The notes: a model not told the origin generated them from the sequence alone. DNA of 64,000 nucleotides from a virus (IMGVR_UViG_3300020166_000019:1-64000), one strand, 5' to 3'; positions 43,901 to 58,971 are shown, numbered from the stretch's first letter. Translations and numbers: made by a program.

Positions 43901-44227
43901 AGAGGCCACTTTATGCATAGTGTCGATACTGATACTGTGGTTGCAGTTACTAGTGAACATGGCTACCGTAATATTGAGATTTCAGATGAATCGAAATTTA
44001 GATATGCGGAAGAAAATACAGTATATCTAATCATAGTTGAAAATACTGATAAGAAAATAGAGTTTATGCATTATAATAAAAAAGATGGAAGTGTATTACA
44101 AATTAATGAGCGTGGATTATTCAACGGTACATGCTTAGATATACAAGTCGGTGATACTGTACATATAGTATCGGCTATTGAAACGATACAATTTATGACA
44201 GAACAAGCAGATAAGCATAAAATATAA
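34928..44227 (+). CDS. 7: Giant baseplate wedge protein, gp7-like
   Basis: A 3099-residue protein beginning 'NKIYNLLPAHLQNKELETIFDSTLERAFSKG', the pattern of the enlarged gp7-type wedge proteins of marine T4-like phages (T4 gp7: 1032 residues). It follows gp25 and gp6, the T4 order. Much of it is aromatic-rich beta sequence with repeated 'WELYYWVDNGF'-like turns. About residues 1850-2250 differ: they are Ser/Thr/Ile-rich and resemble the flagellin/hook 'IN' motif, e.g. 'LSDMVDTINASPVNVTAQDI' then 'HLVITTS', repeated three to four times. Near residue 2504 a run of six Asn comes from an AAT microsatellite. No frameshift is seen. The extra mass may form peripheral spikes. Confidence 0.75.
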   Translation: MANNKIYNLLPAHLQNKELETIFDSTLERAFSKGSIEKTNAFIGRKEKGVYSETDAYVSFPEHLFQRDNYGFEPVFSNTDIGDNIFYDDLLNSMYNKGSLTNDHRRLFKSDTYTINLPIDIDKFINWELYYWVDNGFTSEYALYEFAEYQAGVTGWIKQKPYILKSNSEYLLDEYLPNESFGEIGDYAVVIKQSSLVYWKKDSIEGWARVGSDDPGASSFTASDQRPLSPTLGDTYVNINELRITLLQNQNETFILKDTIYDRWNIDVNPYALRFSDTSEGLISLIEYRSNAQDSTPDWELYDGEQFVFNLGNSNDTHYITIDKNTDRTTKTNWWSDRNSWYHYDDIRMYITDDSKSYVEQAKRPIIEFDKNLELSTESSSAVSWSVPTFKIYDNELNYLNDYMIFHYVEDEDSVVDKFLSIRALLTPGDYASEFTFNIEMPVDASFKVGSNYHTLYIKSEFDYRNLRHEYGTATHSQLSLLQEPKSSETIDVYVDGIIQIGNYVYSSNSIIFNTPVTGYVYVDFTTKDNVVVDGDGSWQRIDPALEYNPDNLFHNNTNFTFSTMYEHMLRQLSTTIGLSGNPNAVNNYRNIGDNTDKMRNNKYGSVMVRNSIDIKNAYFSITRDDYDPFAAVEYLSVSYNNYKNKLITTIQEILSDAGSETKSDDLILDEAIAQIALIKRENISVFSGSRMINFGSFPTHYITGNVDPVIPGSVTQFIPNSISTEIVDDKNVSVYVNGILETNVTIINGIEISFNDSVIAEGDVIEVRYFKLLQETFIPPSASKLGIAAVYNPGYVVDQEFDTPQVMIVGHDGSRMLAWGDRTDEIILLFEKLVYNRIDKNSVTTSLRNISYGMYRDSDTEYSLNEKKFTMYPFFKKWMLRNNIDNLYNTDYDFNDYKTWNYRASNDASPGYWRGIFKYAYGTETPLIEPWVTIGYSIIPDGFETNPLRYSDPDFWNMLKTTYSTTWPIPVDSTGNLRDINDLFFNSQLTPNDISDMDQDWEFGDGSPVEMAWRRSSEYPFIEFLLSMLTKPFKIIDTYSTELNNIIKIYHKVEGINTDTIKNEQNGYEFKLGSKLGGFVNNFKLSSENSALSNSRYTEIPRDNYDLFIHTGEPNRSESFSAIVLEKVSLDESHPIYTLSDIASYRQGDIVYNSSDTRYYKRKVISPTDNEISAVINFDYDGWTLVSQPEVKKYGYRINGFDEFNPQFYSMDWDKTSAPKSWSTLGDKALINDWQSGSFYPLDSYIIHNEVAYISLADHTGSLSFNDDLADYWKRLVTWPRVNQVTANGYKETLPDQIRTHNYGNILYSLDEVAQLLIGYQDYLNAVGWSFTDSNELGENVDFENLLIKFLDWSADKHDIGEFITLTPILLSGRFSAPYGVASVQRETNKNFYRVLDSVGRQIPNTAIKFYSDGDAIMWESTIPIYGMKIDIVDVEHAYVVDRVDNYGDVIYDPISHNRNLRMIIDCNRTSDWDGTLSADGYIVYQNTLIPNFETMVADSKFHRDTIVDQSLSNVNIIKASHIGFTPRTYLSNHLIERESQLEFYKGFISDKGTYNSLNNIVNNNSNFDGVRSNDVWALKLGEYGNLNRNVSVSKSINTKLVYSDPYSIEYDNQTLFEYKTTKRTTPIKTTGYVDSKDVNYIVRNATILETTVSENYYEGDLAWVQFDNLRDWDVRKLSEITEISYVGETQDSQLYIVVTSEVDTTDTVYLRIINDEIDPILNGYYNFVDDGIEILDGTTVYKYLVFDTDFEPVTVEIDTSSQNSIFVPTSDNAGVEAISLNSNVQIIEGEFLVIDGVSYTYIDDGININAGINIGGANATPNPIINAGEQISIVVYDQNDIIKNTNTLITFSGNNIHATNNVTSLSGDEITINGNLITIENIDNGDIEATSTLSVTDNISSGSTLSVQVGSSAASSYTIKDIEIVGTVTSPTFDQTKSIQINGQTIAFTHSGSTITLSDMVDTINASPVNVTAQDISNHLVITTSEPSLVIQGQTAIELGLITTSPTTHSKLGNLAAEIDSQADVSASIVSNKLVISTLLDTMELGGFEFNLFGFPSRTYRSELDPTANSIAQQINDLNISDISAEVEGGKLKVISLGESLTIEESVVAGSMLRLGYTLTTITSSMFDSIIDDINSILSLETDLVASKSFNNRLLISGDEFKATITNTLGDPLTDLGISEGEYLTSGLTNSSLLTFRDIINQQSSTLTASISSDGRFIITSPALQLSFAGTSQNLLDKIGFYTEYTSVTSNANFKVMRWKSVRFTPGYNGATFDEFYNDLGLNTASKIWADSYPGLNDWAVLNRTAIGNIEIVNRKANEVDVSNVNRVIVTDGEEHIIHTLYDPLNLKLPGKVMKDIDYVDWNDPAKYDEYLSNDLWLEEHLGEIWWDTTSTRFYRYNDYGDANGNISVEYAMRNWGKIVDGSVVEIKQWVKNNVLPVGITWFNQEKEWDPVKNKEVTTFYYWSSIGTLPRYEKEYSTDEIKMIIESGQIENKFLPINTNTIIINNNNNNRNVDGIIDVVTEYSVKSNNQDRHLDWELLSRESSKPIMQSYLKDFKNSIADSKIENLKQIIIDYPNLDNDGALLSIDFLLDLTLDDLAISVNNEFLELTNFSLNGTELRINNTFNVILGDVVRVYQVGAISNSWYKNLSKARTNFASIINGMLDTKLLETEYPFYADYIKLDHYIFNSIDWYKHPDYKEITQFEYLSNTRDIDMISMFNSGIRSFGIVNPEYEEVYFGYGSPEEITMVNKIGGALNINFNNIVLPGQTGNSGSISQYYTNVINVQIHELINMIYSYSSNDVIKDLFFDMLSYTYTEKEHPDWLFKTSYIDLKLMNKPLRQYAIYQHDTFDDTIEYVMEAKPYHVKLRNIDRIYPLNEPVIADVDALHHVNLRIDLGGGYSRYNYKTYDGGVAPNDEHPNIEDGKYDQGALLRQPYDVTAEKGGIDTGVVDSRILESAIVRVDEYDSSVVDGIGDSVIDKRSFIVYDTFGRGHFMHSVDTDTVVAVTSEHGYRNIEISDESKFRYAEENTVYLIIVENTDKKIEFMHYNKKDGSVLQINERGLFNGTCLDIQVGDTVHIVSAIETIQFMTEQADKHKI

Positions 44228-44289: not shown

Positions 44290-44964
44290 ATGTTTAATGA
44301 TGATGTAACATCCCAGATAATTGGTAAAGTAAAAATATATGATAAAGATACTGGAAAAGTACTCTTAGAAAAAAAGAATGCTATTCACCCAGGTAATATG
44401 GCTTATATTCTTGCATCTGCTTTAGCAGGCAAACCAACAAGTGTAAACTCTGCTGGTGCTCCTCCGATAGTAAATTGGATGGCTTTCGGTAATGGAGGTA
44501 GCAATTCTACTTCTACATTAGAATATCGTGCACCTAGAGTTTTTGGTAACTATGATCAATTACCCATAACGTCAAGTAATTCTACACTTTATTCAAAGAT
44601 GTATGAACAAGAAACTGTTAATACTGTATACTATGCAGGCCAAGCAATGGATAGCATAGAATCAGTTCCAGAAAATACTGCAAAGATTGTATGTTCAGTT
44701 GAAGTAAACCACTCTGCATATGAAGAAGCAGTTAAAACAGTTGATCCAAGTTTATCGTTGCCCGAAACAGATAGTTCACCTGATACACAGAGTACAAATG
44801 CTTTTACTATAGATGAAATTGGTCTTATGTCTGGTGTTACCAGTGACAGATTTATGGATGAATCAAAAACAACAATGTTGACTCATGTTACATTTCACCC
44901 TGTTTTATTATCATCTAATAGAACAATTATCATAGACTATACCATAACAATTCAAGTAAATTAA
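44290..44964 (+). CDS. Virion structural protein, fibre or baseplate associated
   Basis: A 224-residue protein. The opening 'IIGKVKIYDKDTGKVLLEKKNAIHPGNMAYILASAL' (residues 10-45; pattern 'G.V.I.D..TG.VLL.K.NAIHP.NMA') followed by 'VNWMAFGNGG' is common in structural genes of marine T4-like phages, where it sits between baseplate and fibre genes. The C-terminus ('FTIDEIGLMSG', 'LLTHVTFHPVLLSSNRTIIIDYTI') is beta-rich. The function is not known to me; attachment of a fibre is likely by position. It has a GAAGAGAGAC ribosome site and its own extended late promoter. Confidence 0.65.
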   Translation: MFNDDVTSQIIGKVKIYDKDTGKVLLEKKNAIHPGNMAYILASALAGKPTSVNSAGAPPIVNWMAFGNGGSNSTSTLEYRAPRVFGNYDQLPITSSNSTLYSKMYEQETVNTVYYAGQAMDSIESVPENTAKIVCSVEVNHSAYEEAVKTVDPSLSLPETDSSPDTQSTNAFTIDEIGLMSGVTSDRFMDESKTTMLTHVTFHPVLLSSNRTIIIDYTITIQVN

Positions 44965-44974: not shown

Positions 44975-46048
44975 ATGTCCCCGCAAAGTTATCCCCTAAG
45001 TAGCCAATTCACATCTGATGATTTTAATTTGTTAGCAAATGATATTAATGAAATCGTTGGTATTGGTGCAGGCGATGCAGGTTATGGTCAAAATCAATTA
45101 TTTGTTAATCATGTCAACAAAGGACAAAGATTAATGAAGAAAAACTGGATGGACCTTTTTTACGCTATAACTTTTGCAGCATCACATCAAGGAACAGAAC
45201 TTACAACTCCTGCTAATATATATGAAGGTGATTTTGAAACACTTGATGATATAGTTTATCATAAAGATACTATCGAAGCAGATATAAAAACTATTAGGCA
45301 AAATAAACTTCAATCTGATATAGGAAAAATGTCACTACAGAATAACGTGTCTAGTGTATTACAGACTTATGGAAATCCTACTGAAATTTCAGATCCAGAT
45401 ATGATATGGCTAACTTCAAATATTGGCAAGAACATGGTATTTAAAACTTCATTTGATACCGATGATGCACGAAGATGGCACTTTAATGCAGGCGGTGATA
45501 TTAGAATTTCTGCAGAATTATTGATAGACAGTGCACTATTATATATTCCTAGTATTGCTTGGTATAATCTTTTTAACTCAATCGGCGTTGTAATCATTAA
45601 ACATTCCGAAACTGTTTCTTCTAATCAGATTGGTTTGCCCGGACCTGGATTTAACGGACTAACTACAGAATGGCAAACTATTTACACACGTGTTTATTCT
45701 GAATTAGAAAGTCCAAGTTTCTTTGGTAATTCTGTTACGATTTATGCAAAACTTTCAGATAATGGCGGTATAGAAATAGATTTGACATTAACCAATTGTG
45801 ACACAATTGGCGGTAATAATGGATATAATGGATATAATGGATATAATGAATACAGTGATTATTATTGCGGCGCAGGTGTATTAGATACTGATCCAATAGG
45901 AACTACAAATGGACCATTTGTATCTGGTGAACTATCTGTTAGAATTTCACAAAAAAGAGCGGATGATGCACACAGTAGTAATTTGGGAGTTGTTACTGAA
46001 ATGCCAATTTATAGCATACTATCTTATATCTCAGAAATAAACAGTTAA
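44975..46048 (+). CDS. Virion structural protein, probable fibre component
   Basis: A 357-residue protein starting at ATG 44975 behind AAGGAG. The N-terminus 'SSQFTSDDFNLLANDINEIVG' and 'GYGQN' turn recur in marine phage structural proteins. The middle and end are beta-rich ('FNAGGDIRISAELLID', 'SGELSVRISQKRA'). A stretch 'GGNNGYNGYNGYNEY' near residues 285-299 comes from three GGATATAAT repeats and looks like a flexible or sticky linker. No catalytic motif is seen. It is the last gene of the late block; a sigma-70 promoter follows. Confidence 0.6.
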   Translation: MSPQSYPLSSQFTSDDFNLLANDINEIVGIGAGDAGYGQNQLFVNHVNKGQRLMKKNWMDLFYAITFAASHQGTELTTPANIYEGDFETLDDIVYHKDTIEADIKTIRQNKLQSDIGKMSLQNNVSSVLQTYGNPTEISDPDMIWLTSNIGKNMVFKTSFDTDDARRWHFNAGGDIRISAELLIDSALLYIPSIAWYNLFNSIGVVIIKHSETVSSNQIGLPGPGFNGLTTEWQTIYTRVYSELESPSFFGNSVTIYAKLSDNGGIEIDLTLTNCDTIGGNNGYNGYNGYNEYSDYYCGAGVLDTDPIGTTNGPFVSGELSVRISQKRADDAHSSNLGVVTEMPIYSILSYISEINS

Positions 46049-46064: not shown

Positions 46065-46093
46065 TTGACATTTTAACCTTGTTATGCTATTAT
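46065..46093 (+). promoter_or_regulatory. Sigma-70 promoter for the modification gene cluster
   Basis: TTGACA (46065-46070), a 17-base spacer and TATTAT (46088-46093), 29 bases before the ATG at 46123. It opens an operon that runs to 57117. Confidence 0.72.
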
Positions 46094-46122
46094 TGATAGT
46101 ATTAATATAGTGGAATTATGCA

Positions 46123-46467
46123 ATGGATGATTTGGAAGATATATTATCGTATAGAAATACGATGCGAACATTTAACCTAAATAAAAAGGTTATGCAAGAT
46201 AAAGTTTCTAGTATTCTAATACATCATGAAAATGGTGGATCGTTTGATATTACTCAGGAACTTATTGGGTTCTTAAACTATGCAGTACAAAATAACAAGA
46301 CAAGTATCGTTGTTCTTGATAGGAATAATTTGCCTATAAAAATAAATGATATTAGTAAATTATTGGAAACCATATCTAGTAAATATTTTGAAGCAATCAA
46401 TGACTTTTATATACAGTATGAACAATTGCGTAGTTCATCTAATATTAAGGTAGCATTAGAAATATAA
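46123..46467 (+). CDS. Unknown small helical protein, first gene of the cluster
   Basis: A 114-residue protein I do not recognise. It looks mostly helical: 'KVMQDKVSSILIHHENGG', 'ITQELIGFLNYAVQNNKTSIVVLDRNNLPIKI', then 'FYIQYEQLRSS'. It has no membrane segment or cysteine pattern. Its last base is shared with the first base of the next gene (TAATG), so the two are coupled. Being first behind the sigma-70 promoter, it belongs to the sugar/peptide-modification operon. Confidence 0.6.
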   Translation: MDDLEDILSYRNTMRTFNLNKKVMQDKVSSILIHHENGGSFDITQELIGFLNYAVQNNKTSIVVLDRNNLPIKINDISKLLETISSKYFEAINDFYIQYEQLRSSSNIKVALEI

Positions 46468-47327
46468 TGAATGGTATAATAATATTTTCACACAACAATG
46501 GATATATTGATTATGTAAAGATAGCATGTGCAAGTGCAGGCTATGCTAGAAGAAATTTGTCTGGATTTGATGAAATATGTTTAATTACAGATGAAGAATC
46601 ATTATCAGATAATAAAGAATTAGTTGATATGTATTTTGATAGAGTTATAAAAATACCAGTCCCTAAAGATTCTACTATGCGTATGTATCATGACACTCAT
46701 AGTAATAAAGAACCAGCTAAATTTATCAATACTAATAGAGGCAATGTATATGACTTATCACCATATGATGAAACTCTAGTAATCGATTGCGATTACTTTG
46801 CCATGACCAATGTATTAGATGGTGTATGGGGAAGTAAAAATGATTTTATGATTACTAAGAATTACTCTGATATTAGTAATGATACTAAAAATGATATTAC
46901 TAAAATATCTGATACTAGTATTGATATGTATTGGGCAACAATACTTTACTTTCGAAAGAGTGAATTTTCTAAAACATTATTTAAATTGGTTGATATCATA
47001 AAAAATAATTGGCAGTGGTATTATATAAGATACTCATGTAATATAAAGTTATACAGAAATGATCATACATTTTCAATAGCATTGCATATTATTACCAATG
47101 GTAGTAATGATACTGTGCCGGAATTGCCCATGCATCGATTAATGAATAGTTTTGATACAGATAAAATTTTTAGAATTGATGGACCTGCTAATATATTAAT
47201 GTTAACTGCGATGAATAAAAAATCCAAAAACATGGTCAGACTTCAACAATCTGATTTGCATATTATGAACAAACAAAGCATTCTGAATCATATAGATAAT
47301 TTCTTTGAATACGGTGATTGTAAATGA
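46467..47327 (+). CDS. Glycosyltransferase-like protein (GT-A type)
   Basis: A 286-residue protein with a GT-A nucleotide-sugar pattern. The N-terminal strand-helix 'IIIFSHNNGYIDYVKIACASAGYARR' leads to 'EICLITDEES' and, near residue 105-110, the metal-binding 'VIDCDYF' (DxD). The paralogue next door shares the order of blocks. It likely transfers a sugar to a phage or host glycan or protein; donor and acceptor are unknown. It overlaps the next gene by 4 bases (ATGA). The call rests on fold pattern and the DxD, not on a close match. Confidence 0.6.
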   Translation: MNGIIIFSHNNGYIDYVKIACASAGYARRNLSGFDEICLITDEESLSDNKELVDMYFDRVIKIPVPKDSTMRMYHDTHSNKEPAKFINTNRGNVYDLSPYDETLVIDCDYFAMTNVLDGVWGSKNDFMITKNYSDISNDTKNDITKISDTSIDMYWATILYFRKSEFSKTLFKLVDIIKNNWQWYYIRYSCNIKLYRNDHTFSIALHIITNGSNDTVPELPMHRLMNSFDTDKIFRIDGPANILMLTAMNKKSKNMVRLQQSDLHIMNKQSILNHIDNFFEYGDCK

Positions 47328-48172
47328 GTAAAGGTTATATTATAATTGCACAAAATTCTGATGTTGATTATTTACGTATGGCATATGCATTAGCGTTGAG
47401 CATTAAGGCAACGCAAGATGTGAATTCTGTATGTTTATGTGTTGATAATACAACAAATGACAGATTGGAACAAAAGCATTTTGATGTATTTGATTACGTT
47501 ATTGATATACCCTGGGATGATGATGCGTTATCTTCTAAATGGAAAATAGAAAACAAATGGAAGTATATTCATATGTCGCCATTTGACCAAACTATTATAC
47601 TTGATTCAGACCAGTTGTTCACTGCATCAGTTGATCATTGGTGGGATATTTTAAACAAATATGATCTGTGCTTATGTTCAAACCCAAGAACATTTAGAGA
47701 CCAACCCATAACAAGTGATTACTATCGTAAAAAGTTCACATCTTGTGATTTACCTGATGTATATAGTAATTTTACTTACTTTAACAAATCTACAAAGTCA
47801 TTCAGTTATTTCCGTTTGGTACAAGATATTATGGAAAATTGGAACTATTATTATACTATATTTTTGAATGATCAAGGACAGGATTGGATAAGTGCAGATG
47901 TTGCATTTTCTCTTGCTGCAAAGTTGCTACAAATAGATTCTATTAATACTGACATTCCAGTGCTTAAATTTATACATATGAAAAGTTATGTACAAGATAT
48001 ACCAAAAAAAAGTATATCCTCTAATTGGAATAAAACACTACCAAGTTATGTAACAGATGATTTGAGAATTTTCGTTAACAACCAGGAACTATTATTGCCG
48101 TTTCATTATGTAGAAAAGGATTGGCTTACAGATACTATTATTAAAAAGTATGAGGACATTTTCTATGTTTGA
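47324..48172 (+). CDS. Glycosyltransferase-like protein, paralogue of the preceding gene
   Basis: A 282-residue protein that repeats the layout of its neighbour. 'GYIIIAQNSDVDYLRMAYALALSIK' is the first beta-alpha unit, then 'NSVCLCVDN', and 'MSPFDQTIILDSDQLF' carries the DxD (about residues 84-99). Later 'SNFTYFNKSTKSF' aligns with 'ATILYFRKSEFSK' in the neighbour, in support of duplication. Aromatic residues (W, Y) are frequent, as in glycan-handling enzymes. Its end overlaps the next gene by 8 bases. The substrate is unknown. Confidence 0.6.
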   Translation: MSKGYIIIAQNSDVDYLRMAYALALSIKATQDVNSVCLCVDNTTNDRLEQKHFDVFDYVIDIPWDDDALSSKWKIENKWKYIHMSPFDQTIILDSDQLFTASVDHWWDILNKYDLCLCSNPRTFRDQPITSDYYRKKFTSCDLPDVYSNFTYFNKSTKSFSYFRLVQDIMENWNYYYTIFLNDQGQDWISADVAFSLAAKLLQIDSINTDIPVLKFIHMKSYVQDIPKKSISSNWNKTLPSYVTDDLRIFVNNQELLLPFHYVEKDWLTDTIIKKYEDIFYV

Positions 48173-48740
48173 GTGCGTAAATAATTCAAATAATTTAGAT
48201 GATTGTAAGATAGTATATTTTGATACTACTGGGAATATCCAATCAATTGAAAACCGTATAATACAAGACAGTGAAAATATATATGTATATTTCAGAACAT
48301 CTGACATTAGTATTTTCTTAGATGGGACTACGAACATAGATGATTATCATATCATTTATAAAAATGACACAATGAGTTACCACATTGTTCGTAAAGATAG
48401 CAAAAAACTTATATCTATAAAAAATAACTTTACAAAAAAATTAGAAATACATAAAGAGCCTACTATTATGATTGACATTACATACAGAGGATTTTCATTT
48501 CAATTAGTTGAAGATATTTTAGGTCAAACTGAGTTGCTAAAAAGACTTAATCAAAATTTTTATGTTACATTATATGAAGAACCAGATTTTATTATTGACA
48601 CAATAAATTTAAACTATGAAAATTTAATTTCTGGCGAAAGATATCTAATTGATTACCAACATAAATATAACAAGATAAGTATGTATATAACTCAAGAATT
48701 ATTAAAAACTTACTCACTGGAGGATAAAAGAATAGCATGA
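48165..48740 (+). CDS. Unknown protein in the modification cluster
   Basis: A 191-residue protein that I do not recognise. I start it at ATG 48165 because TGAGGA lies nine bases upstream; an ATG at 48150 in the same frame has no site. Repeated short beta strands ('YHIIYKNDTMSYHIVRKDSKK', 'ENIYVYFRTSDISIFLDG') are followed by a helix 'VEDILGQTELLKRLNQNF'. It has no metal or nucleotide motif. It overlaps its neighbours by 8 and 4 bases and is clearly in the same operon. Confidence 0.55.
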   Translation: MFECVNNSNNLDDCKIVYFDTTGNIQSIENRIIQDSENIYVYFRTSDISIFLDGTTNIDDYHIIYKNDTMSYHIVRKDSKKLISIKNNFTKKLEIHKEPTIMIDITYRGFSFQLVEDILGQTELLKRLNQNFYVTLYEEPDFIIDTINLNYENLISGERYLIDYQHKYNKISMYITQELLKTYSLEDKRIA

Positions 48741-49693
48741 CTACAATTACCATAAAACACTTAGATATATTTTATCTTAGCTATGATGAACCCAACAAAG
48801 AAGAACATTATGCTGACTTATTAAAAAAATATCCACAAGCAAAACGTATTGATGGAGTTAAAGGATTTGACAACGCACATAAAGCTTGTGCACGTGCTAG
48901 TAATACAGACAGATTTATAACTATTGATGGTGATAATATTGTTGACAAAAAATTCTTTGATCTTGTATTGAATTTTCCTGAGAATACAGATTTAAGCCGC
49001 AGTGTCATATCCTGGGGAGCAAAGAATTTAACCAATGGCCTAGTATATGGCAACGGTGGCATTAAATGTTGGCCTGTTAAACTTGTATTAGATATGAAGA
49101 CACATGAAAATGCAGATAATGAAACTAAGAAACTAGATTTCTGCTGGGACTTAGATTACAAGCAAATGAATAATACTTATTCAATGATATTCAACAGTGG
49201 ATCTCCATTCCAAGCGTTTCGTAGCGGATTCCGAGAAGGTGTTAAGATGTCTCTGGATGAAGGCAAAATTATTGATCCCTCTAAATTTAAAACTAAAGTT
49301 TGGCCAAAGAATTATCATAGATTACTTACCTGGTGTAACATTGGGGCAGATATAGAAAATGGGCTATGGTCAATATACGGAGCACGATTAGGGTGTTATA
49401 ATATAAATTTTGATGGTAATTTTACTGCTGAAAGTATTAGTGACTATGATTGGTTCAAATCATATTTTCATAACGAAATATATCCACAGTTTGTATCGGA
49501 TGATTCTGAAACTGATTTTGACTTATTATATGATAAAACATTAGAATTGGGAGACAGTCTAGTAGATAAGTTGGGAATGGAATTATGTGATCCAACTGTA
49601 GAAATGTCAAACTTTTTTAAATTAGTATACGTAAATCCCAAACGTGTATGGAATCCACTGGCAACTGAAAAATCAACCGGTTGGGACAAATAA
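48737..49693 (+). CDS. Glycosyltransferase-like domain protein
   Basis: A 318-residue protein. 'HLDIFYLSYDEPNKEEHYADLL' is followed by 'YPQAKRIDGVKGFDNAHKACA' and 'RFITIDGDNIVDKKFF', with Asp-Gly-Asp as the probable metal site (near residue 64-68). 'GLVYGNGGIKCWP' follows. The same series of blocks occurs in the gene at 63131, and I know it from marine T4-like phages without an assigned function. GT-A-like folding is inferred. The ATG lies inside the end of the preceding gene. It is followed by about 200 bases with only tiny frames. Confidence 0.6.
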   Translation: MTTITIKHLDIFYLSYDEPNKEEHYADLLKKYPQAKRIDGVKGFDNAHKACARASNTDRFITIDGDNIVDKKFFDLVLNFPENTDLSRSVISWGAKNLTNGLVYGNGGIKCWPVKLVLDMKTHENADNETKKLDFCWDLDYKQMNNTYSMIFNSGSPFQAFRSGFREGVKMSLDEGKIIDPSKFKTKVWPKNYHRLLTWCNIGADIENGLWSIYGARLGCYNINFDGNFTAESISDYDWFKSYFHNEIYPQFVSDDSETDFDLLYDKTLELGDSLVDKLGMELCDPTVEMSNFFKLVYVNPKRVWNPLATEKSTGWDK

Positions 49694-49780
49694 TATTATA
49701 CACCGTACGATAATTATGGTTAAGAAAATCAGATTATTGTATAAACCAGTAGATGAAGTAGCAAAAAGAAAATACTAAAC

Positions 49781-49870
49781 ATGGATATTATTTTAATTGC
49801 AGTAATCTTTTCAGCATTGATCGGATACTGGGCAGAGAGGGTACTGCTAAGGCTAAGAAAGAACAAATGA
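49781..49870 (+). CDS. Possible 29-residue membrane peptide
   Basis: The frame codes one hydrophobic helix 'DIILIAVIFSALIGYWA' followed by a basic end 'LLRLRKNK', the layout of a small inner-membrane peptide. It has no good ribosome site. A 20-codon frame at 49716-49778 just before it (basic, MVKKIRLLYK) is even weaker. Nothing else is seen between 49694 and 49896. Confidence 0.35.
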   Translation: MDIILIAVIFSALIGYWAERVLLRLRKNK

Positions 49871-49896
49871 AAAATAAAAAAGATAAGAGTATATAA

Positions 49897-51471
49897 ATGG
49901 GACAATATGAAGACGAAGCAATTGATGCGAGAGAATCACTGAACAAGATATCGGCATCAATGTGTATGGCCAAATGGTTACAAGTAAGTTTACATTTACC
50001 TCAGGGTAGAACCCACAGTTGCTATCACCCACCAACACACTCAATTCCATTAAATGAACTAAAAAAAGATGTGGGCGCACTACATAACACTGAGTTTAAA
50101 ATGCAAGAGCGCAAGCAAATGTTAAACGGTGAAAGACCTGCCGGATGCCAGTATTGCTGGAATGTAGAAGATGCGCCGGATGCACCGTCGGGTGGACGAT
50201 TGAGTGATCGGCATTATCGTTCAAGTGAATGGTGGGCACAAGAAGCGTGGAATGAAGTAGTTAATAATCCATTCGATCACAAAATTACTCCACGATATGT
50301 AGAAGTTAATTTTAATCAAGCATGTAATCTTAAATGCAGTTATTGTGCACCACACTTGAGCACCGCCTGGGAAGACGATATTAAAAAACACGGTAATTTT
50401 AAATTTGCTAGTGGAACAGTACATAATGATATTCCTACATTAAAAAAAGCGGGTTGGATGCCACTTGATGTTGCACGAAAGGATAACCCATACGTTTCTG
50501 CGTTTTGGGAATGGTTCCCTGTGGTATACAAGGATTTGAAAGTCTTTCGTATGACAGGCGGCGAACCTCTTATGGATAAAAATACATTTAAGATTTTAGA
50601 TTATGTGAATAGTAATCCCAATTCTTCATTAGACTTGAGCATCACATCTAATATGTCACCGCCGGATCCAAAACTGTTTGATAGGTTTATAGAAAAGATA
50701 AAAACACTAGAAGAAGTTAGAGTATGGGAAGATCCAGATAAATTTAATTCAGATTCTGGTAATAATTGGTATGTAGCACCTGCTTGTAAACACTTTAGTT
50801 TATTTGTAAGTGTTGACAGTGTGGGTAAGCAAGCAGAATACTTACGTGACGGACTAGACTTTGATACAATGTATGAAAACTGTCGAAGATTTCTAAGAGA
50901 GACTAGTGGCACTGAAATATCATTTATTAACACATTTAATTTACTAAGTATTCCAAATTTAAGGGGATTCTTACAAATGATATTAGATTTAAGAGAAGAG
51001 TTTGGTTATGATAACCAAGATGACTTTTCATTTCAACCACCAGACCATAATGGATATGTTCACCCACCGTTTATACGAAAAAAAAGACAGAGAATATGGT
51101 TTGATATTCCATACTTACGCTTTCCAGACTGGATGACAATTCAATTAGCAGACGATATGCTACTTGATATGATACAAGACAATATCAACTTTATGAAACA
51201 GAATGTACTGTCAAATGAGGATTATAATATATCATATAATGGGTTTAAAAATTACGAAGTCCTAAAACTTGAACGAGATTTATCTTGGGCAAAACAAGGA
51301 ATAAACATGAGTGATGAACAATTAAGTATAAATATTATTAAATTCTATGAATACTTTACTGAGTATGATCGTAGGCGTGGTAAAAACTTTTTAGATACGT
51401 TTCCAGAAATGACTGAATTTTGGAATGAATCTAAAGAAGAATATGAGGAAAATCATGGCAAGAGACTTTAA
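49897..51471 (+). CDS. Radical SAM protein with N-terminal cysteine cluster (copy 1)
   Basis: A 524-residue radical SAM enzyme. 'ACNLKCSYC' supplies Cys143, Cys147 and Cys150 for the [4Fe-4S] cluster, and 'FRMTGGEPLM' is the SAM-binding GGE motif. Before this domain are four more cysteines, Cys23, Cys42, Cys84 and Cys87 ('SCYHPPTH', 'GCQYCW'), fit for an auxiliary cluster as in SPASM/twitch enzymes but on the N-terminal side. Such enzymes modify peptides or carbohydrates. The substrate is unknown. The second copy follows at once with a 17-base overlap. The start at 49897 has only a weak AAGAG site. Confidence 0.85.
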   Translation: MGQYEDEAIDARESLNKISASMCMAKWLQVSLHLPQGRTHSCYHPPTHSIPLNELKKDVGALHNTEFKMQERKQMLNGERPAGCQYCWNVEDAPDAPSGGRLSDRHYRSSEWWAQEAWNEVVNNPFDHKITPRYVEVNFNQACNLKCSYCAPHLSTAWEDDIKKHGNFKFASGTVHNDIPTLKKAGWMPLDVARKDNPYVSAFWEWFPVVYKDLKVFRMTGGEPLMDKNTFKILDYVNSNPNSSLDLSITSNMSPPDPKLFDRFIEKIKTLEEVRVWEDPDKFNSDSGNNWYVAPACKHFSLFVSVDSVGKQAEYLRDGLDFDTMYENCRRFLRETSGTEISFINTFNLLSIPNLRGFLQMILDLREEFGYDNQDDFSFQPPDHNGYVHPPFIRKKRQRIWFDIPYLRFPDWMTIQLADDMLLDMIQDNINFMKQNVLSNEDYNISYNGFKNYEVLKLERDLSWAKQGINMSDEQLSINIIKFYEYFTEYDRRRGKNFLDTFPEMTEFWNESKEEYEENHGKRL

Positions 51472-52945
51472 AAATGGCGAAACACTACACCAATTCAAAG
51501 AACGTGTAATTGATACTATAAGTGATAGTTATTGTGCTGCAAAATGGTACAATGCAACTATTTGGTTAGGCCACGGCCAAACTGCAAGTTGCCATCATCC
51601 CCCTAGTCATAAAATTCCTTTGGAAGAATTGAAAGATAATCCATCCGCAATTCATAATACTATGCATAAGAAAAAGTTGCGTAAAATGATGCTTAATGGT
51701 GATCGTCCCAGTGAATGCGAATATTGTTGGAAAATTGAAGATATGGGAAAAAATCACATCAGTGATCGTACCTTCAAAACAGAAACAGTTCCAGAAGATA
51801 AAATTTTAGAAAGTGTGTCGGCGAAATGGGATGATAATCCGACACTGACAACACTTGAAATATCGTTTGATAGAGCATGCAATCTCAAATGTAGTTATTG
51901 TAATCCTACATTCAGCACTGCGTGGGTAAAAGATATTAATACATATGGACCATATGTTGATATTCAGAGTGATGGCCGCGGACACTTTGAAACAAACGCT
52001 CCCTGGGCTGAACCTCCAACCAAGAGAGAAGAAGATAATCCATATATCCAAGCCTTTCATAAATGGTGGGATGATGAATTATCTGAAACATTGGATGAAA
52101 TTAGATTGACTGGTGGCGAACCAATAATGCACACTGGTACTTGGAAACTATTTGATTGGTTCGAAGCTAATCAAGATTCTGAAATGAGATTTGCTATTAA
52201 TAGTAATCTTTCGCCTGATTCACCTAAGGTATTAGACAAACTAATTGAAAAGGCACAGTTTATAAAAAAATTATATATATATACATCAGCAGAAGCGACA
52301 AAAGATGCTGCTGAATATATTCGTGATGGGCTAAACTATGATCTATGGAAAAATAATATGGATCGTGTTATGAATGAAACAAATGCCGGAATGCACATGA
52401 TGATGACAATTAATTCATTATGCTTGCCGACAATAACTGATTTCTTAGATGAAATGTTAGATCTAAAAGAAAAATGGGGACACAGGGCACCGATGTTGAG
52501 TTTAAATATACTTAGATTCCCATCATTCCAAAGTGCTGCTATTCTGCCTCCAGAATTGAAATCTATATACAAAGAACAATTACAAGATTGGTTTTTAGGA
52601 GAACGTGCACAAAAATTATGTGGCGACATCGAAAAAGCTAATATTGCAAGACTTATTGATTATCTAGATATAGTAAAGACTCCTCATAAGAATACATCTG
52701 AAACTGAAAAATTACACCATGACTTTAAAACGTTTTATACGCAATATGATATTAGAAGAGGCAAGAATTTTTCCGAAACATTCAAGGGGCCGTTAGCAGA
52801 CTGGTTCGAATCTATCGATATTATAGTTCCAACAAAGAAAGAAATCTTAGATCGTACATTTGTTTCTAGTATGCCTGCAAGACTCAGAACTAGCCCATCA
52901 ACTGTTGAACAATATTCTGGCGGCGACGATGATCATGAGATTTAG
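51455..52945 (+). CDS. Radical SAM protein with N-terminal cysteine cluster (copy 2)
   Basis: A 496-residue paralogue of the preceding enzyme. The radical SAM motif is 'ACNLKCSYC' (Cys142, Cys146, Cys149) and the GGE motif is 'IRLTGGEPIM'. The N-terminal cysteines 27, 46, 88 and 91 ('SCHHPPSH', 'ECEYCW') have the same spacing as in copy 1. Both copies share an 'YDxRRGKNFxxTFP/KG' block near the C-terminus. I start it at ATG 51455, behind TGAGGAAAATC inside the end of copy 1. The pair may act as a heterodimer or on two sites of one product; this is inference. Confidence 0.85.
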   Translation: MARDFKNGETLHQFKERVIDTISDSYCAAKWYNATIWLGHGQTASCHHPPSHKIPLEELKDNPSAIHNTMHKKKLRKMMLNGDRPSECEYCWKIEDMGKNHISDRTFKTETVPEDKILESVSAKWDDNPTLTTLEISFDRACNLKCSYCNPTFSTAWVKDINTYGPYVDIQSDGRGHFETNAPWAEPPTKREEDNPYIQAFHKWWDDELSETLDEIRLTGGEPIMHTGTWKLFDWFEANQDSEMRFAINSNLSPDSPKVLDKLIEKAQFIKKLYIYTSAEATKDAAEYIRDGLNYDLWKNNMDRVMNETNAGMHMMMTINSLCLPTITDFLDEMLDLKEKWGHRAPMLSLNILRFPSFQSAAILPPELKSIYKEQLQDWFLGERAQKLCGDIEKANIARLIDYLDIVKTPHKNTSETEKLHHDFKTFYTQYDIRRGKNFSETFKGPLADWFESIDIIVPTKKEILDRTFVSSMPARLRTSPSTVEQYSGGDDDHEI

Positions 52946-52949
52946 ATAG

Positions 52950-55061
52950 ATGTTTATCCATATTGATTATACTCTTCGTGAATGTATCATTGAATTTGTA
53001 CTATCTGAATTTAAAAATAAAAGAATATATGAATTGGATTCTGTTGCAAAACAACAAATGGATGACATTGTTGATTCATTGGTAGATGATATCATACTTC
53101 TGATAGGGGGAAATAACGATCTATATGCTTATAAGAGTAGAGAATTTAATACAACACTTGTTGGTAATCATTTTAAAATAAAAATATATACCGGTATATC
53201 TAAAAAAATTGCAAAAAATAATTACAAGTTAGCAGAACAATATTTGACAAATAGTTTTGCTGTACTTGAGCCAATTGAATTTGAAAATGACTGGTGCCGT
53301 GTCGAAGTTTATCGTTACATCGATGCTCCGAACGTTGAAAATTTATTATACTCAGATGCAATAATAGATATTGATGATATTAATAACAAGTTTGTTAGGT
53401 ATGTTATTAATACCTATTATTCATCTATTGACGAACATGAGGATTGTTACTATTGTTATGATAGTAATATGAGCAATTTTGTACTATCAACCGATGGCGA
53501 ATTGACAAATATTGATTTTGATTTTATTTCCAAATATTCTTATCATCAGATGATACACGATGTTGTCTGGCAATGGTGCACATTCATGTTCTTAGATAAT
53601 GATAATCCTCGACACGATAATAAAAATTCATATACATTGTCTTACATAGAAAATGGCAATGATATTTTTTCATTGGCAAACAGATTAATAGATGAAATCT
53701 ATAAGAAAATTAGTAAAAATAGGCCTGATAAAAAGTTACAAATACCGTTACCATCAGCACCATATACAGACTCAGTTCAAAATGAAATAACTGAATATAA
53801 TAAAAAACAATTGATGGCTCAATACAAATTTAATTATCTGGGAAACCAGAATGCAAATCCAATGTTTGAACATATGGCAAACTTTATAATGGATCATGAT
53901 TGTACTAATATTCTAGATATAGCGTGTGGACATTCTAGAATTAATGAATTCCTAACTGATCACCAGTATACGCTACACGGAATAGATAATGATACTGGTG
54001 CTGTAGAATACGCAAATATTTTGTATCAAGACGATGATAATATCAATATATTTAATGATGATATTATGGAGATGATAGAAAGAGACACTGATGATAATTT
54101 TGATTGCATAGTTATATCAGGATTTTTGTATTATATGAAACCCGGAGCATTTAAATATTCTCCTAATGAGTTCATTGAAAAACTGGTTGAGAAGTTCAGT
54201 CCACAATACATTTTGGTATGTGAACCTCGCCCTAGTAAATCTTATTTAACCAGTGACTTATCTGAAGTATTCAGTTCTTGGCGTTATCAAAGTAAATTCT
54301 TTGATTTGAATATACGTATGGGAGAACGAGTTGTGTATGCTTTACATACAGATACCAGACGATCAATATACGAAAGGGATATAGTAGCAGAATTTAATCC
54401 AGACAGTATACATAATCATCGTAAAGAACCCGATTATGATGATTCATTATTGTATAATAATGTTTATTTGACTAATACTGAAACACTTAAAGATGTAATA
54501 CCATCTGATGCAACACATTATATTAGTGTGTGTGGTGGACTTAAATGTGTATACCAAGCGTGTATGGATTGGGAGCCAGGAAGAGATTTCAAAATGACGT
54601 ATATTGATGTTGTTCCAACTGCATTGGACTTTAGAATGTATTTTGATTTTCTGTACCCAAAAATTAGAAATCTAACAGATGTTGCAAAATTCTATAAAAA
54701 AGACATTAATTCAGATGTATGGTTTGCAATGGGCGAAGGTAGACATCTATCAGAAGCAAATAATGTGTTATACGAGCAACTTGAATATTTGAATATACAA
54801 GATAAATGGGATGATTTTATTCAAGCATATAACAAAATTGATAAAGAATACATAAGAATAGATGCGGTTAGTGATATTATTACACTTAATAATATTATTA
54901 AGAATGATACATCATCTAAACTATTTTGGTATAGTAATATACATGATTGGCATCAGTTTAGATACACGGAGGAAGACTTTGCTAGGTGGAAAGAAATACT
55001 ACTGACATCTAACAATATAAAATTATTAGGTAAGGTACCTCCGTTTACGAGTTCTCCATAA
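52950..55061 (+). CDS. Multidomain protein: kinase-like region plus SAM methyltransferase
   Basis: A 703-residue fusion. Residues 1-260 resemble small-molecule or lipopolysaccharide kinases: 'STDGELTNIDFDF' at about 180-192 recalls the Asp-loop/DFG region. Residues about 310-470 form a class I methyltransferase, with 'ILDIACGHSR' (motif I), the acidic 'GIDND' after beta-2 and 'FDCIVISGFLYY' for motif IV. Residues about 480-703 are a third, unknown domain ('YISVCGGLKCVYQACMDW', 'KLFWYSNIHDWHQF'), perhaps a second Rossmann-like unit. It follows the radical SAM pair by 4 bases. The combined activities suggest decoration of a glycan or peptide. Confidence 0.6.
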   Translation: MFIHIDYTLRECIIEFVLSEFKNKRIYELDSVAKQQMDDIVDSLVDDIILLIGGNNDLYAYKSREFNTTLVGNHFKIKIYTGISKKIAKNNYKLAEQYLTNSFAVLEPIEFENDWCRVEVYRYIDAPNVENLLYSDAIIDIDDINNKFVRYVINTYYSSIDEHEDCYYCYDSNMSNFVLSTDGELTNIDFDFISKYSYHQMIHDVVWQWCTFMFLDNDNPRHDNKNSYTLSYIENGNDIFSLANRLIDEIYKKISKNRPDKKLQIPLPSAPYTDSVQNEITEYNKKQLMAQYKFNYLGNQNANPMFEHMANFIMDHDCTNILDIACGHSRINEFLTDHQYTLHGIDNDTGAVEYANILYQDDDNINIFNDDIMEMIERDTDDNFDCIVISGFLYYMKPGAFKYSPNEFIEKLVEKFSPQYILVCEPRPSKSYLTSDLSEVFSSWRYQSKFFDLNIRMGERVVYALHTDTRRSIYERDIVAEFNPDSIHNHRKEPDYDDSLLYNNVYLTNTETLKDVIPSDATHYISVCGGLKCVYQACMDWEPGRDFKMTYIDVVPTALDFRMYFDFLYPKIRNLTDVAKFYKKDINSDVWFAMGEGRHLSEANNVLYEQLEYLNIQDKWDDFIQAYNKIDKEYIRIDAVSDIITLNNIIKNDTSSKLFWYSNIHDWHQFRYTEEDFARWKEILLTSNNIKLLGKVPPFTSSP

Positions 55062-55076
55062 ATAATAAATAATTAT

Positions 55077-56063
55077 ATGAGTAATATTATTAATAATACA
55101 ACATCTTGGTCACTTTTTTCCAATGCAAAAAAATCTTATAATAGTAACTACGGCCTTTGTGGCCAAATAATACATCATGGTGATCCAAATATTGAAGAAC
55201 GTTATACTAGTGATTATGATACTAGAACCGATCTGTCAGATGTGAACTATATAAAATCTAAAAAACATATATTGTTTTTTGGTGATAGTTTCACATACGG
55301 ACACGGCATCAGTGGAAAACACACCATTACTAATGTAATGCAACACAAGATGAATGATGATTATATATTAATTAATCTAGGTAAGCCTGGGGCAAGCGGC
55401 GATAAAGTAGTAGAAATTTTTTGCCAATGGATGAATTGCGAATATGCTGATAACGTACATACAGTTGTTGTCAATTTTCCAGATCATTCTCGGAATACAT
55501 TGACACGGACAGTAAATTTTAAAGAATGGGGAAATAAGAGATTACAATTGTATGATGATATGGTTAACCCCAATGCTGACATGAGTTTATTGCCAAAATT
55601 TGTAGCATCTGGCTATGCCGACATAATAAAAGAGGAAGAGGCAAAAGAAATTCACGCCGCCTATTATAAAAATTTTTGTACTCCAGTACTAGATTTAAAA
55701 CGATATGAAAAAAATTTATTATTATTAACAACATTGTGTAAGCTCAACAATTTAAATTTAATTTCATGGCATTGGTATAGTTATTTAAATGCTTTTGAAC
55801 CACCCTATCATGAGTATGCTATAAGTGATAATAAAATTTTTGAAAACATAATACAAAATTTACAGAAATCTTTTTCTGAACAAGGATTAATTTACAAAAC
55901 CATCATTGATATTCGTGAAAAAGTTAAATTAGAATATAACACTCAATATGGAAAAGAAGATCCAAACAAACTGCATCTGCGCCTCGAAGATGGACACTTT
56001 AGTAATAAAGGGAACAAGATATTATCTGAAATAATTTATGACACACTTAAAGGAATTATTTAA
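55077..56063 (+). CDS. SGNH/GDSL-type hydrolase-like protein
   Basis: A 328-residue protein. 'ILFFGDSFTYGHG' (near residue 66-78) is the GDS block with the nucleophile Ser. 'INLGKPGASGDK' gives the Gly block, and 'DGHFSNKGN' near the C-terminus the Asp/His pair of SGNH esterases. Such enzymes add or remove acetyl groups on sugars. A similar but shorter protein occurs at 60176. The start at 55077 has no clear Shine-Dalgarno; an AATAAATA sequence stands just before it, which may be chance. It abuts the 2OG-oxygenase gene. Confidence 0.75.
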   Translation: MSNIINNTTSWSLFSNAKKSYNSNYGLCGQIIHHGDPNIEERYTSDYDTRTDLSDVNYIKSKKHILFFGDSFTYGHGISGKHTITNVMQHKMNDDYILINLGKPGASGDKVVEIFCQWMNCEYADNVHTVVVNFPDHSRNTLTRTVNFKEWGNKRLQLYDDMVNPNADMSLLPKFVASGYADIIKEEEAKEIHAAYYKNFCTPVLDLKRYEKNLLLLTTLCKLNNLNLISWHWYSYLNAFEPPYHEYAISDNKIFENIIQNLQKSFSEQGLIYKTIIDIREKVKLEYNTQYGKEDPNKLHLRLEDGHFSNKGNKILSEIIYDTLKGII

Positions 56064-56675
56064 ATGACTACTAGCAATACCAAGTACATTGTTAACGCAT
56101 TGCAAAAATCTAATATCAATATATTGCCATATGAATGGATGCACATCGAAAATATATTTTCAGATGAATATTATAAACTATTAAAATCCACCCCATTAGA
56201 AGAAGTACAAAAAATGTTGATAGATGATTTTAATGATCCAGATGTATTCGACACTGTTATTGAAAAATTTACTGGTGCACCGTTAAATGGTGATACAATT
56301 AATAGTATATATGCTTTTTGGCAATCACACGGCAAAGGCTACACTTTGAAACCACATGAAGATGGTGAAACTCGTATTTTTACTTTCACTATATATCTTG
56401 CTGATAATAATGATTATCCTGAAGCCGGCACTGCTGTATATGAAGTAAACGAGAATACAAAAGAGTACAAAACTGTGAGTATGATACCATATACCATGAA
56501 TAGTGCAATGCTTATTGCGCCGTGTAAAAAGAGAACGTGGCACGGTGTTAATATGTTAGAACACAATATAAAAAGAGATAGTATAGTTTTAGTATTTGCA
56601 ACACATAAATGGGAGCCTGGCCAAATGCATTATGCTGATTGGAAATCTGGGATAAGTGTGACACATGTTATATGA
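56064..56675 (+). CDS. 2-oxoglutarate/Fe(II) oxygenase-like protein
   Basis: A 203-residue double-stranded beta-helix oxygenase of the prolyl-4-hydroxylase type. 'PHEDGETR' holds His98 and Asp100, 'TWHGVNML' His160, and 'IKRDSIVLVF' Arg171, which binds 2-oxoglutarate. 'FTFTIYLADN' is the strand between them. The length is normal for phage members. These genes are common in marine T4-like phages; the target (protein or nucleotide) is unknown. It overlaps the next gene by 11 bases and belongs to the 46-57 kb operon. Confidence 0.8.
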   Translation: MTTSNTKYIVNALQKSNINILPYEWMHIENIFSDEYYKLLKSTPLEEVQKMLIDDFNDPDVFDTVIEKFTGAPLNGDTINSIYAFWQSHGKGYTLKPHEDGETRIFTFTIYLADNNDYPEAGTAVYEVNENTKEYKTVSMIPYTMNSAMLIAPCKKRTWHGVNMLEHNIKRDSIVLVFATHKWEPGQMHYADWKSGISVTHVI

Positions 56676-57117
56676 AGAAATAGATGGATGGCGTTGTGTT
56701 GTAGTTGTGAGTAGCGATTCTAGATTACACTTGAATCAAAATGCAGTTGATGGTGTAAAAATATCAGATGATGATATAAATTTAATGCGAAGCGATGTAT
56801 ATTATAACTTTAAAGTACTAGCAAATGATTTTGACGGTGTTAAAAATCAATGGTTGGATTACCCTCACATCCAATATTTAACTAATGCATATGAATTCAA
56901 TTCGGTGGAACGAGCCGTAAATATTCCATATAGTAATCTTATATCATTGGACTTGGATAGTAATCCAATGGCTATACATCAAAAAATGGGAAGTATATCT
57001 TTTGGTTGTGGTGATTGTGGTGATACATTTTTTTCGTATGGGTCATCAGAATTAATCTTCAATGGACTGTTTCAAAGCTTTTCGGGCAGCGGTTCTGGAA
57101 GTATTTGGGTGAGATGA
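56665..57117 (+). CDS. Unknown protein, last gene of the modification operon
   Basis: A 150-residue protein. The C-terminal 'NPMAIHQKMGSISFGCGDCGDTFFSYGSSELIFNG' region (about residues 100-135) has a Cys-Gly-Asp-Cys pair and a Gly/Ser-rich end 'SGSGSGSIW'. The N-terminal half is charged and beta-rich. I do not recognise it. It starts inside the end of the oxygenase gene and meets a minus-strand gene 13 bases after its stop. No clear terminator is visible in between. Confidence 0.55.
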   Translation: MLYEEIDGWRCVVVVSSDSRLHLNQNAVDGVKISDDDINLMRSDVYYNFKVLANDFDGVKNQWLDYPHIQYLTNAYEFNSVERAVNIPYSNLISLDLDSNPMAIHQKMGSISFGCGDCGDTFFSYGSSELIFNGLFQSFSGSGSGSIWVR

Positions 57118-57130: not shown

Positions 57131-57916
57131 TTAAATAATTTTCACATAATTCAATCTAGTCTCTTTAATGTCAGGATTCCCCCAAACAGTGCTGCAATCT
57201 TTGACTTTTGCAGTAATACTAAAAATTCCAGTCATATCTGATAATTCATCTTTGGTAGTAAAGAATGAAACGCGATTACCATCGGGAGTAATAGCATTTA
57301 TATTCCATCCAGCCCAAGCAGTTGCCTGACGTTTAGACATAATCTCAATATCTATAGTAACTTTATCATCTTTACTTCCAACGTATTCAGAACCAACCGA
57401 ACGTTCTTCTAATTTCTTTTTATTAGTATCACGTTTTACATATTCAGGAATAAAAGCAATAATGCCCATATGCTTTTGAATATATAATTCATCATCATTT
57501 TCTGCCAAAAATTCATGAATACTGGTTTCAAAATCGTTCATATTATCACCGAGAACTTTGAACATAAATTCCATATTCAGATTATCAAGCATTGATTGTG
57601 CGGCATTCAATAACTCAGTATCTTCTAGAATATTTGGAACTACCTCTTCTAATGTTTGAATAACATGTCGATTACTTTCTTTAATACGTGTGTACCGCTG
57701 GACTTTTTCACCATCTTCAATTTTAGTAACAAAGTCAGACTTTCCACCACGTTTTAAATATTCGCCGTTAATACGTTGTGCTGCAATGGCCAAAGCAAGA
57801 ACTTCTTGTTTTGTTTTTGGTTTAATATAAGCACCATTTTCTTTTAATTCTGGATTACAAAACTTGATAGGATCAATCATTTTATAAAGGTCGTTTATTT
57901 TATTAAGATTGTTCAT
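57131..57916 (-). CDS. Unknown early protein next to radical SAM gene
   Basis: A 261-residue protein. The N-terminal two thirds are helical and charged ('TKQEVLALAIAAQRINGEYLKRGGK'). The last 70 residues read as a small beta domain, 'GNRVSFFTTKDELSDMTGIFSITAKVKD' with an 'ETRLNYVKII' end, similar in pattern to the C-terminal domain of several phage DNA-metabolism proteins of the 'ATVK-x-H...TxLxRVK' type. No catalytic residues are evident. The start at 57916 follows AAAGGATAAATA and shares one base with the stop of the radical SAM gene, so the two are coupled. Confidence 0.5.
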   Translation of the reverse strand: MNNLNKINDLYKMIDPIKFCNPELKENGAYIKPKTKQEVLALAIAAQRINGEYLKRGGKSDFVTKIEDGEKVQRYTRIKESNRHVIQTLEEVVPNILEDTELLNAAQSMLDNLNMEFMFKVLGDNMNDFETSIHEFLAENDDELYIQKHMGIIAFIPEYVKRDTNKKKLEERSVGSEYVGSKDDKVTIDIEIMSKRQATAWAGWNINAITPDGNRVSFFTTKDELSDMTGIFSITAKVKDCSTVWGNPDIKETRLNYVKII

Positions 57917-58971
57917 TATTTATCCTTTTTAATTTCGTTGTGATACGCTTTATTTTTTGCACATGTTTTTATACATCCAGGTAAATGTAAATCATTATAA
58001 GGATGCCAACTTTCTACTAATAATTTTTTATACCACGGATGTTCTAGAACTTCATCTATGCTTTTATCTTTTAAACTATTCCACTCATTACCTTGTGTTG
58101 CTAATTTTTCTAACATTTTATCATTGTTGTATAAAGTATTATCCCAAAGAAAACAACATGGCCATAAAGTTAGATCATTTGCTATAAAAATTTCGCCTTC
58201 GTGTATATATTTACAAATAATACTATTAGTTACAGTTGAGATCTTTTCTTCATCAAGGCGGTTGCGTTGATATTCTTCAATAAAATTATCTAATTCTTTG
58301 ACTACATCTACTTTACTATGTTGTTTTTTACCTGTTGTGGTAATTGTTTTTTCTATTTTCTTATTTTTCTTACCTAATTTAACAAGCCAATCATCCTCAC
58401 TATTACGCATACCGGTACGAATACCAAAATTAAAACCTAAAGATTCTGCATGTTTTCTGGCAGTTTCAAGTTCATGTTCGTTATGATCAAATACAATATA
58501 TATCCACCCTGCTGAATCACTTGCCGCTGTTTTTGCAAAAGCTTCCATATTGCGTTTTACAACATTCCATTTTGTATTTACACGATATATGTGATTTGTT
58601 TCTTTGTGTCCGTCTACACAAAAATGAATATGTAACCTACCAGGATTTTCTGCTGAAATGCGTCCTAATTCTTCCCACCATTCAACAGTATTATATCCTC
58701 CGTTTGTACTATACTGTACATAGCCGCCGCAGCTAATAAGATATCTAGTCATTTCTAAACAATCAGGATTTACAATAGGGTCACCTAATACTCCGCAAAA
58801 TTTGAATTTTACTCCTGAATAGTCATCCACTGGAAATAGTCTTTGTAAATCTTGCAATGAAAAACTATTTACTACTAATTTATCTATGTTTAATGTTCTA
58901 GAACAACCCGGACACGCTGCATTACAATCGCTTGTAATTTCAAGCTCGACTTTTTTTAAATCTTTTAACAT
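57916..58971 (-). CDS. Radical SAM/SPASM-like protein
   Basis: A 351-residue radical SAM enzyme of a different type from the tandem pair. 'ITSDCNAACPGCSR' gives Cys16, Cys20 and Cys23. 'LGDPIVNPD' stands for the GGE/GDP loop. C-terminal cysteines in 'IICKYIHEGEIFIA', 'WPCCFLW' and 'GCIKTCAKN' follow a SPASM-like order for auxiliary clusters. Such enzymes often modify peptides. It sits in the minus-strand early cluster, coupled to the 261-residue gene behind it. I see no good ribosome site before the ATG at 58971. Confidence 0.8.
   Translation of the reverse strand: MLKDLKKVELEITSDCNAACPGCSRTLNIDKLVVNSFSLQDLQRLFPVDDYSGVKFKFCGVLGDPIVNPDCLEMTRYLISCGGYVQYSTNGGYNTVEWWEELGRISAENPGRLHIHFCVDGHKETNHIYRVNTKWNVVKRNMEAFAKTAASDSAGWIYIVFDHNEHELETARKHAESLGFNFGIRTGMRNSEDDWLVKLGKKNKKIEKTITTTGKKQHSKVDVVKELDNFIEEYQRNRLDEEKISTVTNSIICKYIHEGEIFIANDLTLWPCCFLWDNTLYNNDKMLEKLATQGNEWNSLKDKSIDEVLEHPWYKKLLVESWHPYNDLHLPGCIKTCAKNKAYHNEIKKDK

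Follow-up and report, generated by a model that had tools for sequence, protein, structure and literature searches.

What would a phage make with a run of transferase-like and radical S-adenosylmethionine (SAM) genes placed directly after its structural block? The question is raised by the viral record IMGVR_UViG_3300020166_000019, an incomplete phage fragment of 78,433 bases, with bases 1-64000 forming the window. The major capsid protein shares 70% identity with its counterparts in PA5oct-type jumbo phages, and a 3099-amino acid (aa) protein (34928-44227) has its match in the giant virion protein known from PA5oct and from Salicola phage SCTP-2. The record is a 78.4-kb piece of a PA5oct-related jumbo phage, and no tRNA genes were found on it. 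Directly after the structural block, eleven plus-strand open reading frames (ORFs) fill 46123-57117. They overlap or nearly abut, with a 203-bp gap at 49694-49896 as the sole exception, and the operon is confirmed as a gene unit. A preliminary description of this DNA had seen here a chain of overlapping genes behind one sigma-70 promoter, forming a single 11-kb pathway that builds or decorates a sugar or peptide. The chain holds apart from the gap and the gene at 46123, which had been overlooked. The shared promoter and a decoration pathway also fit, but what was taken as one pathway is a fixed core plus a variable, lineage-specific back.

To describe the relatives of this operon, we scanned with its second radical-SAM enzyme and obtained 447 relatives. 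Neighborhoods fetched for the best 80 of the 447 showed a recurring order of a tail protein (TF), S5, GA, GA, a small protein (U8 or a different one), GB, and radical-SAM genes. GA2 and GB were then used as anchors, which avoids choosing loci through a radical-SAM gene. After de-duplication there were 117 distinct IMG/VR loci, the best-scoring of two scans, and the counts describe this group rather than all phages. The loci come from uncultured phages on marine and freshwater contigs. TF is encoded 5' of GA1 in all 107 testable loci and S5 in 105 of them. Downstream of GA1, GA2 and GB are each present in 103 of 103 testable loci and U8 in 98. TF-S5-GA1-GA2-U8-GB is a conserved syntenic core. 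Radical-SAM genes follow it in 88 of the 103 loci, and their number per locus ranges from zero to six in the fetched flanks. As the core stands without them in the other 15, we consider the radical-SAM genes variable tailoring. The operon is thus not scattered in relatives as far as its front half is concerned, the order of which is kept in more than 100 loci, while the last four genes (52950-57117) are found in near relatives only. Other relatives carry in the same place a UDP-sugar dehydrogenase, NeuB, a class II aldolase, a carbamoyltransferase, or additional radical-SAM genes. In minimal loci no sugar-making genes trail the core. We found no description in the open-licence literature of this core or of its separability from the radical-SAM array.

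The core begins with S5 (46123-46467), a protein of 114 aa without a family, which we propose to be an adaptor or chaperone. GA1 (46467-47327), a GT-A/GT8-like glycosyltransferase (GT) with an invariant DxD motif, and GA2 (47324-48172), a glycogenin/GT8-like glycosyltransferase, are paralogs (hhalign probability of 99.8% between the two families). The GA2 family profile reaches glycogenin-1 (E 2e-7), and the DxD motifs align; for the GA1 family alone the E value is 0.45. On this profile match GA2 is a putative GT8-like (glycogenin-like) transferase. U8 (48150-48740) is a small protein without a family. Its members are highly divergent, often below 20% identity, yet keep a C-terminal [ST][IV]YTxxxFDxY-like motif, a possible carrier or docking tail. 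GB (48737-49693) is highly conserved and GT2-like, with an invariant DGDN. Profile searches of the PDB with GB and S5 gave nothing usable, and neither PHROGs nor Pfam placed S5, U8, GB or TF consistently in a family.

TF (44975-46048, plus strand) lies just outside the operon and is a tail or virion protein homologous to PA5oct gp360 (hhalign 99.5%, E 2.9e-23) and a candidate acceptor. The preceding gene of the virion block, T12 (44290-44964, plus strand), codes for a protein 34% identical to PA5oct gp357. Both gp357 and gp360 are annotated with electrospray ionization tandem mass spectrometry (ESI-MS/MS) in the public record. In PA5oct, gp360 closes its block and the cassette does not follow. 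Controlling for the giant structural protein, TF distances track those of GA1 (0.53), GA2 (0.48) and S5 (0.46). Under the same control, the values for T12 are lower at 0.30, 0.25 and 0.36, respectively. Glycogenin glucosylates a protein tyrosine. In TF of this phage there is an insert, GGNNGYNGYNGYNEYSDYY, that none of the 32 other members of the alignment has, and its tyrosines could be glycogenin-like acceptors.

After the gap, the operon encodes two radical-SAM enzymes (49897-51471 and 51425-52945) of the twitch family NF033640. They score 296.6 and 303.8 bits, respectively, against a cut-off of 170, and both have a CNLKCSYC motif, the first with four N-terminal Cys residues. In both, the CxxxCxxC and the N-terminal auxiliary-cluster cysteines are intact and are invariant across 34 relatives. 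KM (52950-55061) has a kinase-like N-terminus, a methyltransferase domain at about residues 317-427 (PF13649, E 4e-7), and a C-terminus without a family. Its methyltransferase and C-terminus form a free-standing protein in a divergent locus, L315, where KM- and OG-like genes are reunited. SG (55077-56063) resembles SGNH/GDSL hydrolases (PF00657, E 0.0016, below cut-off) and has GDS and DGH motifs. OG (56064-56675) resembles 2-oxoglutarate (2OG)-Fe(II) oxygenases (PF13640, E 2.7e-5, just below cut-off) and has HED...H. The last gene, C34 (56665-57117), codes for a Cys-containing protein with no family match. The gene calls of the preliminary description therefore largely stand, namely the GT-A-like pair, the proteins without a family at 48150 and 56665, and the two radical-SAM enzymes. 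For its kinase-like/methyltransferase fusion the methyltransferase is borne out and the kinase part is a motif reading only, and for its SGNH hydrolase and 2OG oxygenase the family matches are weak with readable catalytic motifs.

The promoter it had placed ahead of the operon is likewise upheld. The sigma-70-like site TTGACA-17-TATTAT (46065-46093, plus strand) is strong, matching at 11 of 12 positions, and its position is kept in relatives. Upstream of S5, a sigma-70-like site of at least 10/12 is present in 44% of non-identical sequences compared to 3% of shuffles, and a T4-late-like TAAATA is found in 37%. Sites before GA1, GA2, U8 and the radical-SAM genes are at background level. Over the whole region there is no clear enrichment, with 120 promoter-like sites for 104 expected (sd 11). 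In relatives the TF-S5 gap (median 61 bp) holds the promoter, the genes within the core overlap, and some relatives have a terminator 5' of S5.

We also examined where else the radical-SAM family is found. Only two hits to NF033640-type enzymes came from isolate phages among 50,697 records, compared to the 447 relatives in one scan. Both are distant and belong to the Vibrio phages K566 and K567. In K566 (L338, record positions 161548-169287), GT8-like and GT4-like genes are interspersed among four twitch radical-SAM genes, and several of these genes are annotated as hypothetical. The GT8-like assignment is mostly a reading of the sequence, to which the PDB adds a single weak match, WbbM (E 0.004). 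No homologs of TF, S5, GA, U8 or GB were found among the K566 proteins tested. GA2 and GB queries, taken from the window as well as from divergent relatives, also found no match in isolate phages; when matches to GA2 were accepted up to E 10, weak ones in cyanophages were all that appeared. Many Bdellovibrionota genomes encode the radical-SAM family, next to genes for GT2, NodU-type carbamoyltransferase, FAD/UDP-galactopyranose-mutase-like and PMT-like proteins, as seen without a random-locus control. The TF-S5-GA core is absent from these loci and a GB homolog is present only sometimes. Dense twitch radical-SAM clusters are found on contigs of Bdellovibrionota metagenome-assembled genomes and of other bacteria (L137, L143, L147, L163, L167, L174). 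We regard apparent bacterial copies of the core (L106, L107, L108, L112, L125, L130, L153) as contigs of phages that ended up in bacterial bins. Contigs with the full cassette occur in GTDB genomes labelled Pelagibacter, Verrucomicrobia, Rickettsiales, Betaproteobacteria, Neomarinimicrobiota and Rhodobacteraceae. We found no report in the open-licence literature on the function of this radical-SAM family.

Taken together, the operon is likely a sugar pathway of some kind, supported by the co-occurrence of carbamoyltransferase, UDP-sugar dehydrogenase and NeuB at the locus in relatives. Our preferred explanation, held tentatively and at a little short of an even balance, is a soluble phage-made glycan pathway whose product is probably edited by radical chemistry, most likely on TF. 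GA1, GA2 and GB would begin and then lengthen a chain of sugars carried by a protein, TF being the likeliest acceptor, with S5 and U8 as possible adaptors, chaperones or carriers. The variable radical-SAM set, with the methyltransferase, 2OG oxygenase, SGNH hydrolase and carbamoyltransferase, would edit the sugars, for example by epimerization, deoxygenation, methylation or carbamoylation, and may leave the adsorption apparatus with a sugar cap that varies. We infer the GT activity, sugar as the radical-SAM substrate, TF as the acceptor, and the benefit. Sugars are favored as the substrate because transferases and carbohydrate enzymes accompany the radical-SAM genes in three settings. A cytoplasmic acceptor, most simply TF, is favored because the tail link is constant and membrane proteins are lacking: the 28 proteins of the locus have no convincing membrane segment (highest 19-residue hydropathy of 1.56). 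That TF or the virion is the target is plausible while falling slightly short of probable. The preliminary description had left three targets open: the host surface, the fibers and a natural product. The constant link to a tail protein favors the virion, and a peptide natural product is unlikely since we saw no precursor and the constant part is formed by the GTs rather than the radical-SAM enzymes. A bolder form, rather unlikely in our estimation, is an undescribed and widespread virus-borne system of protein glycosylation. In it, the core would prime a tail adhesin with a sugar, an exchangeable radical-SAM array would rewrite that sugar, and the host-recognition apparatus would gain a fast-evolving, chemically diverse coat.

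Several observations weigh against TF as the acceptor of a sugar. Physical closeness could also explain the covariation of TF with GA1, GA2 and S5, which falls with distance, and the constant core-TF adjacency can be plain lineage synteny. None of 45 single GA members matches PF01501, the Pfam GT8 family, at E 0.1, and for that reason we class GA2 as GT8-like and not as GT8. Only six of 45 GB members match the GT2 family PF13641 (best E 0.013), so the further GT-like protein of the preliminary description at 48737 keeps only a weak GT2 likeness. The sigma-70-like promoters suggest that expression is not limited to late infection in about half of the relatives. In K566, the radical-SAM/GT genes adjoin no annotated tail gene and a PagP-like gene lies nearby, at 171561. 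That gene and the promoters, present in many relatives, would suit the same kind of sugar pathway acting on the host envelope, with lipopolysaccharide (LPS) or capsule remodelled, for instance as a barrier against superinfection or against progeny adsorbing again. The GT8 and LPS genes of pelagimyophages are interpreted in this way (PMC7029224). NeuB, UDP-sugar dehydrogenase and aldolase in relatives also fit, as does the presence of the bacterial radical-SAM family within surface-polysaccharide-type loci. However, the 28 locus proteins include neither a flippase nor a membrane GT, the core is bound to the tail gene in every testable locus, and sugar-making genes do not follow the minimal loci, leaving the envelope a serious though less likely target.

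If no sugar is involved, the core could serve to mature or assemble the tail fibers, its GT-like folds binding without transferring, with the radical-SAM enzymes altering the side chains of the tail protein directly. Some radical-SAM enzymes do modify proteins and peptides, the place after TF is fixed, the GT matches of GB and GA1 are weak or indirect, and S5 and U8 have no family. The retained DxD motifs, the carbohydrate genes alongside the array, and the 15 loci lacking radical-SAM genes make this improbable. Synthesis of a small-molecule or peptide natural product, like an aminoglycoside or a ribosomally synthesized and post-translationally modified peptide (RiPP), is very unlikely. Radical-SAM enzymes, methyltransferases, carbamoyltransferases and 2OG oxygenases are frequent in such clusters and the carbamoyltransferase downstream of the operon matches antibiotic carbamoyltransferases, but the constant part consists of GTs and not tailoring genes. 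A RiPP cluster was rejected as no precursor candidate is found in the operon, the 203-bp gap holding only a hydrophobic ORF of about 31 codons and the distance from GB to the radical-SAM gene being about -1 bp in relatives, and no membrane, export or transporter protein is among the 28. Hypermodification of the phage DNA is very improbable as well. Phage GTs can glycosylate DNA, according to literature cited in PMC12619734, and a PP-loop/QueC-like ATPase is encoded inside the radical-SAM array. Against this, the thymidylate synthase matches PF00303 in full, we noticed no hydroxymethylase on the fragment, incomplete as it is, and the core is linked to tail genes and not replication genes.

Viral radical-SAM arrays and GT8-rich host-recognition islands are previously published. 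One close system is the host recognition cluster of pelagimyophages, a tail-fiber region that combines radical-SAM cassettes with GT8 and LPS genes (Zaragoza-Solas et al. 2020, PMC7029224). Like the locus described here, it places GT8 and radical-SAM genes in the tail-fiber region of large marine myophages. It is, however, a non-syntenic island of SAR11 phages defined by its place between VrlC and gp14, whereas the present operon follows a structural block with a PA5oct-like capsid and keeps its core in one order within a PA5oct-related jumbo lineage from marine and freshwater sources. One T4-like environmental viral genome of 183 kb has 12 radical-SAM genes (Nishimura et al. 2017, PMC5332604); the portion of that paper on such genomes frames them as Fe-S metabolism and describes no link to a tail-GT core. 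In mycobacteriophage virions, phage transferases glycosylate capsid and tail-tube proteins (Freeman et al. 2023, as summarized in passages of PMC12363180 and PMC12619734). Those are other phages and transferases, the passages report no radical-SAM editing, and the acceptor here is inferred. Four putative core glycosyltransferases were described in 2025 for an aquatic large-phage lineage (PMC12619734). K566 and K567 share the pairing of radical-SAM with GT8-/GT4-like genes but neither, among the proteins tested there, the TF, S5, GA, U8 and GB homologs nor the adjacency to annotated tail genes. Phage-encoded sugar transfer is common to our preferred explanation and the Gtr O-antigen modification of temperate phages. 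Gtr relies on a membrane flippase and membrane GTs, and a Gtr seroconversion system was rejected as neither is found among the 28 locus proteins, none of which exceeds the hydropathy of 1.56 given above.

The radical-SAM family is very common in uncultured aquatic phages and near absent from isolates. A core tied to a tail protein provides a testable substrate, and through K566 the pairing of radical-SAM and GT genes can be approached in culture. If the preferred explanation is true, radical sugar chemistry would join phage virion decoration and would help explain the many iron-sulfur enzymes in some large aquatic phages.

Beyond 57117, the array runs on to about 76.7 kb of the record. Of the ten radical-SAM genes on the whole record, two are in the operon and eight in this continuation, including one at 57916-58971 on the minus strand. 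Also encoded there are a NodU/TobZ-type carbamoyltransferase (61555-63090, plus strand) with PDB matches to the novobiocin, GdmN and TobZ carbamoyltransferases (E down to 1e-60), and a second GB-type protein (63131-64000, plus strand, continuing to record position 64222; GB profile E 2e-34). The continuation further holds a small kinase-like protein, SGNH proteins, two related proteins with no family match, and, in the middle of the array, the PP-loop ATPase (L010:9000-9707, record 73000-73707), with a weak QueC match (PF06508, E 7e-4). Within the window, an 89-aa protein (60907-61176, plus strand) by eye resembles a GIY-YIG/T5orf172-type domain. A 970-aa fiber-like protein (1779-4691, minus strand) has, by eye, about six near-identical units of about 72 aa (NVEDLTNNRI...GELEDDANFTMDG) and a C-terminus resembling a peptidase-S74-type chaperone.

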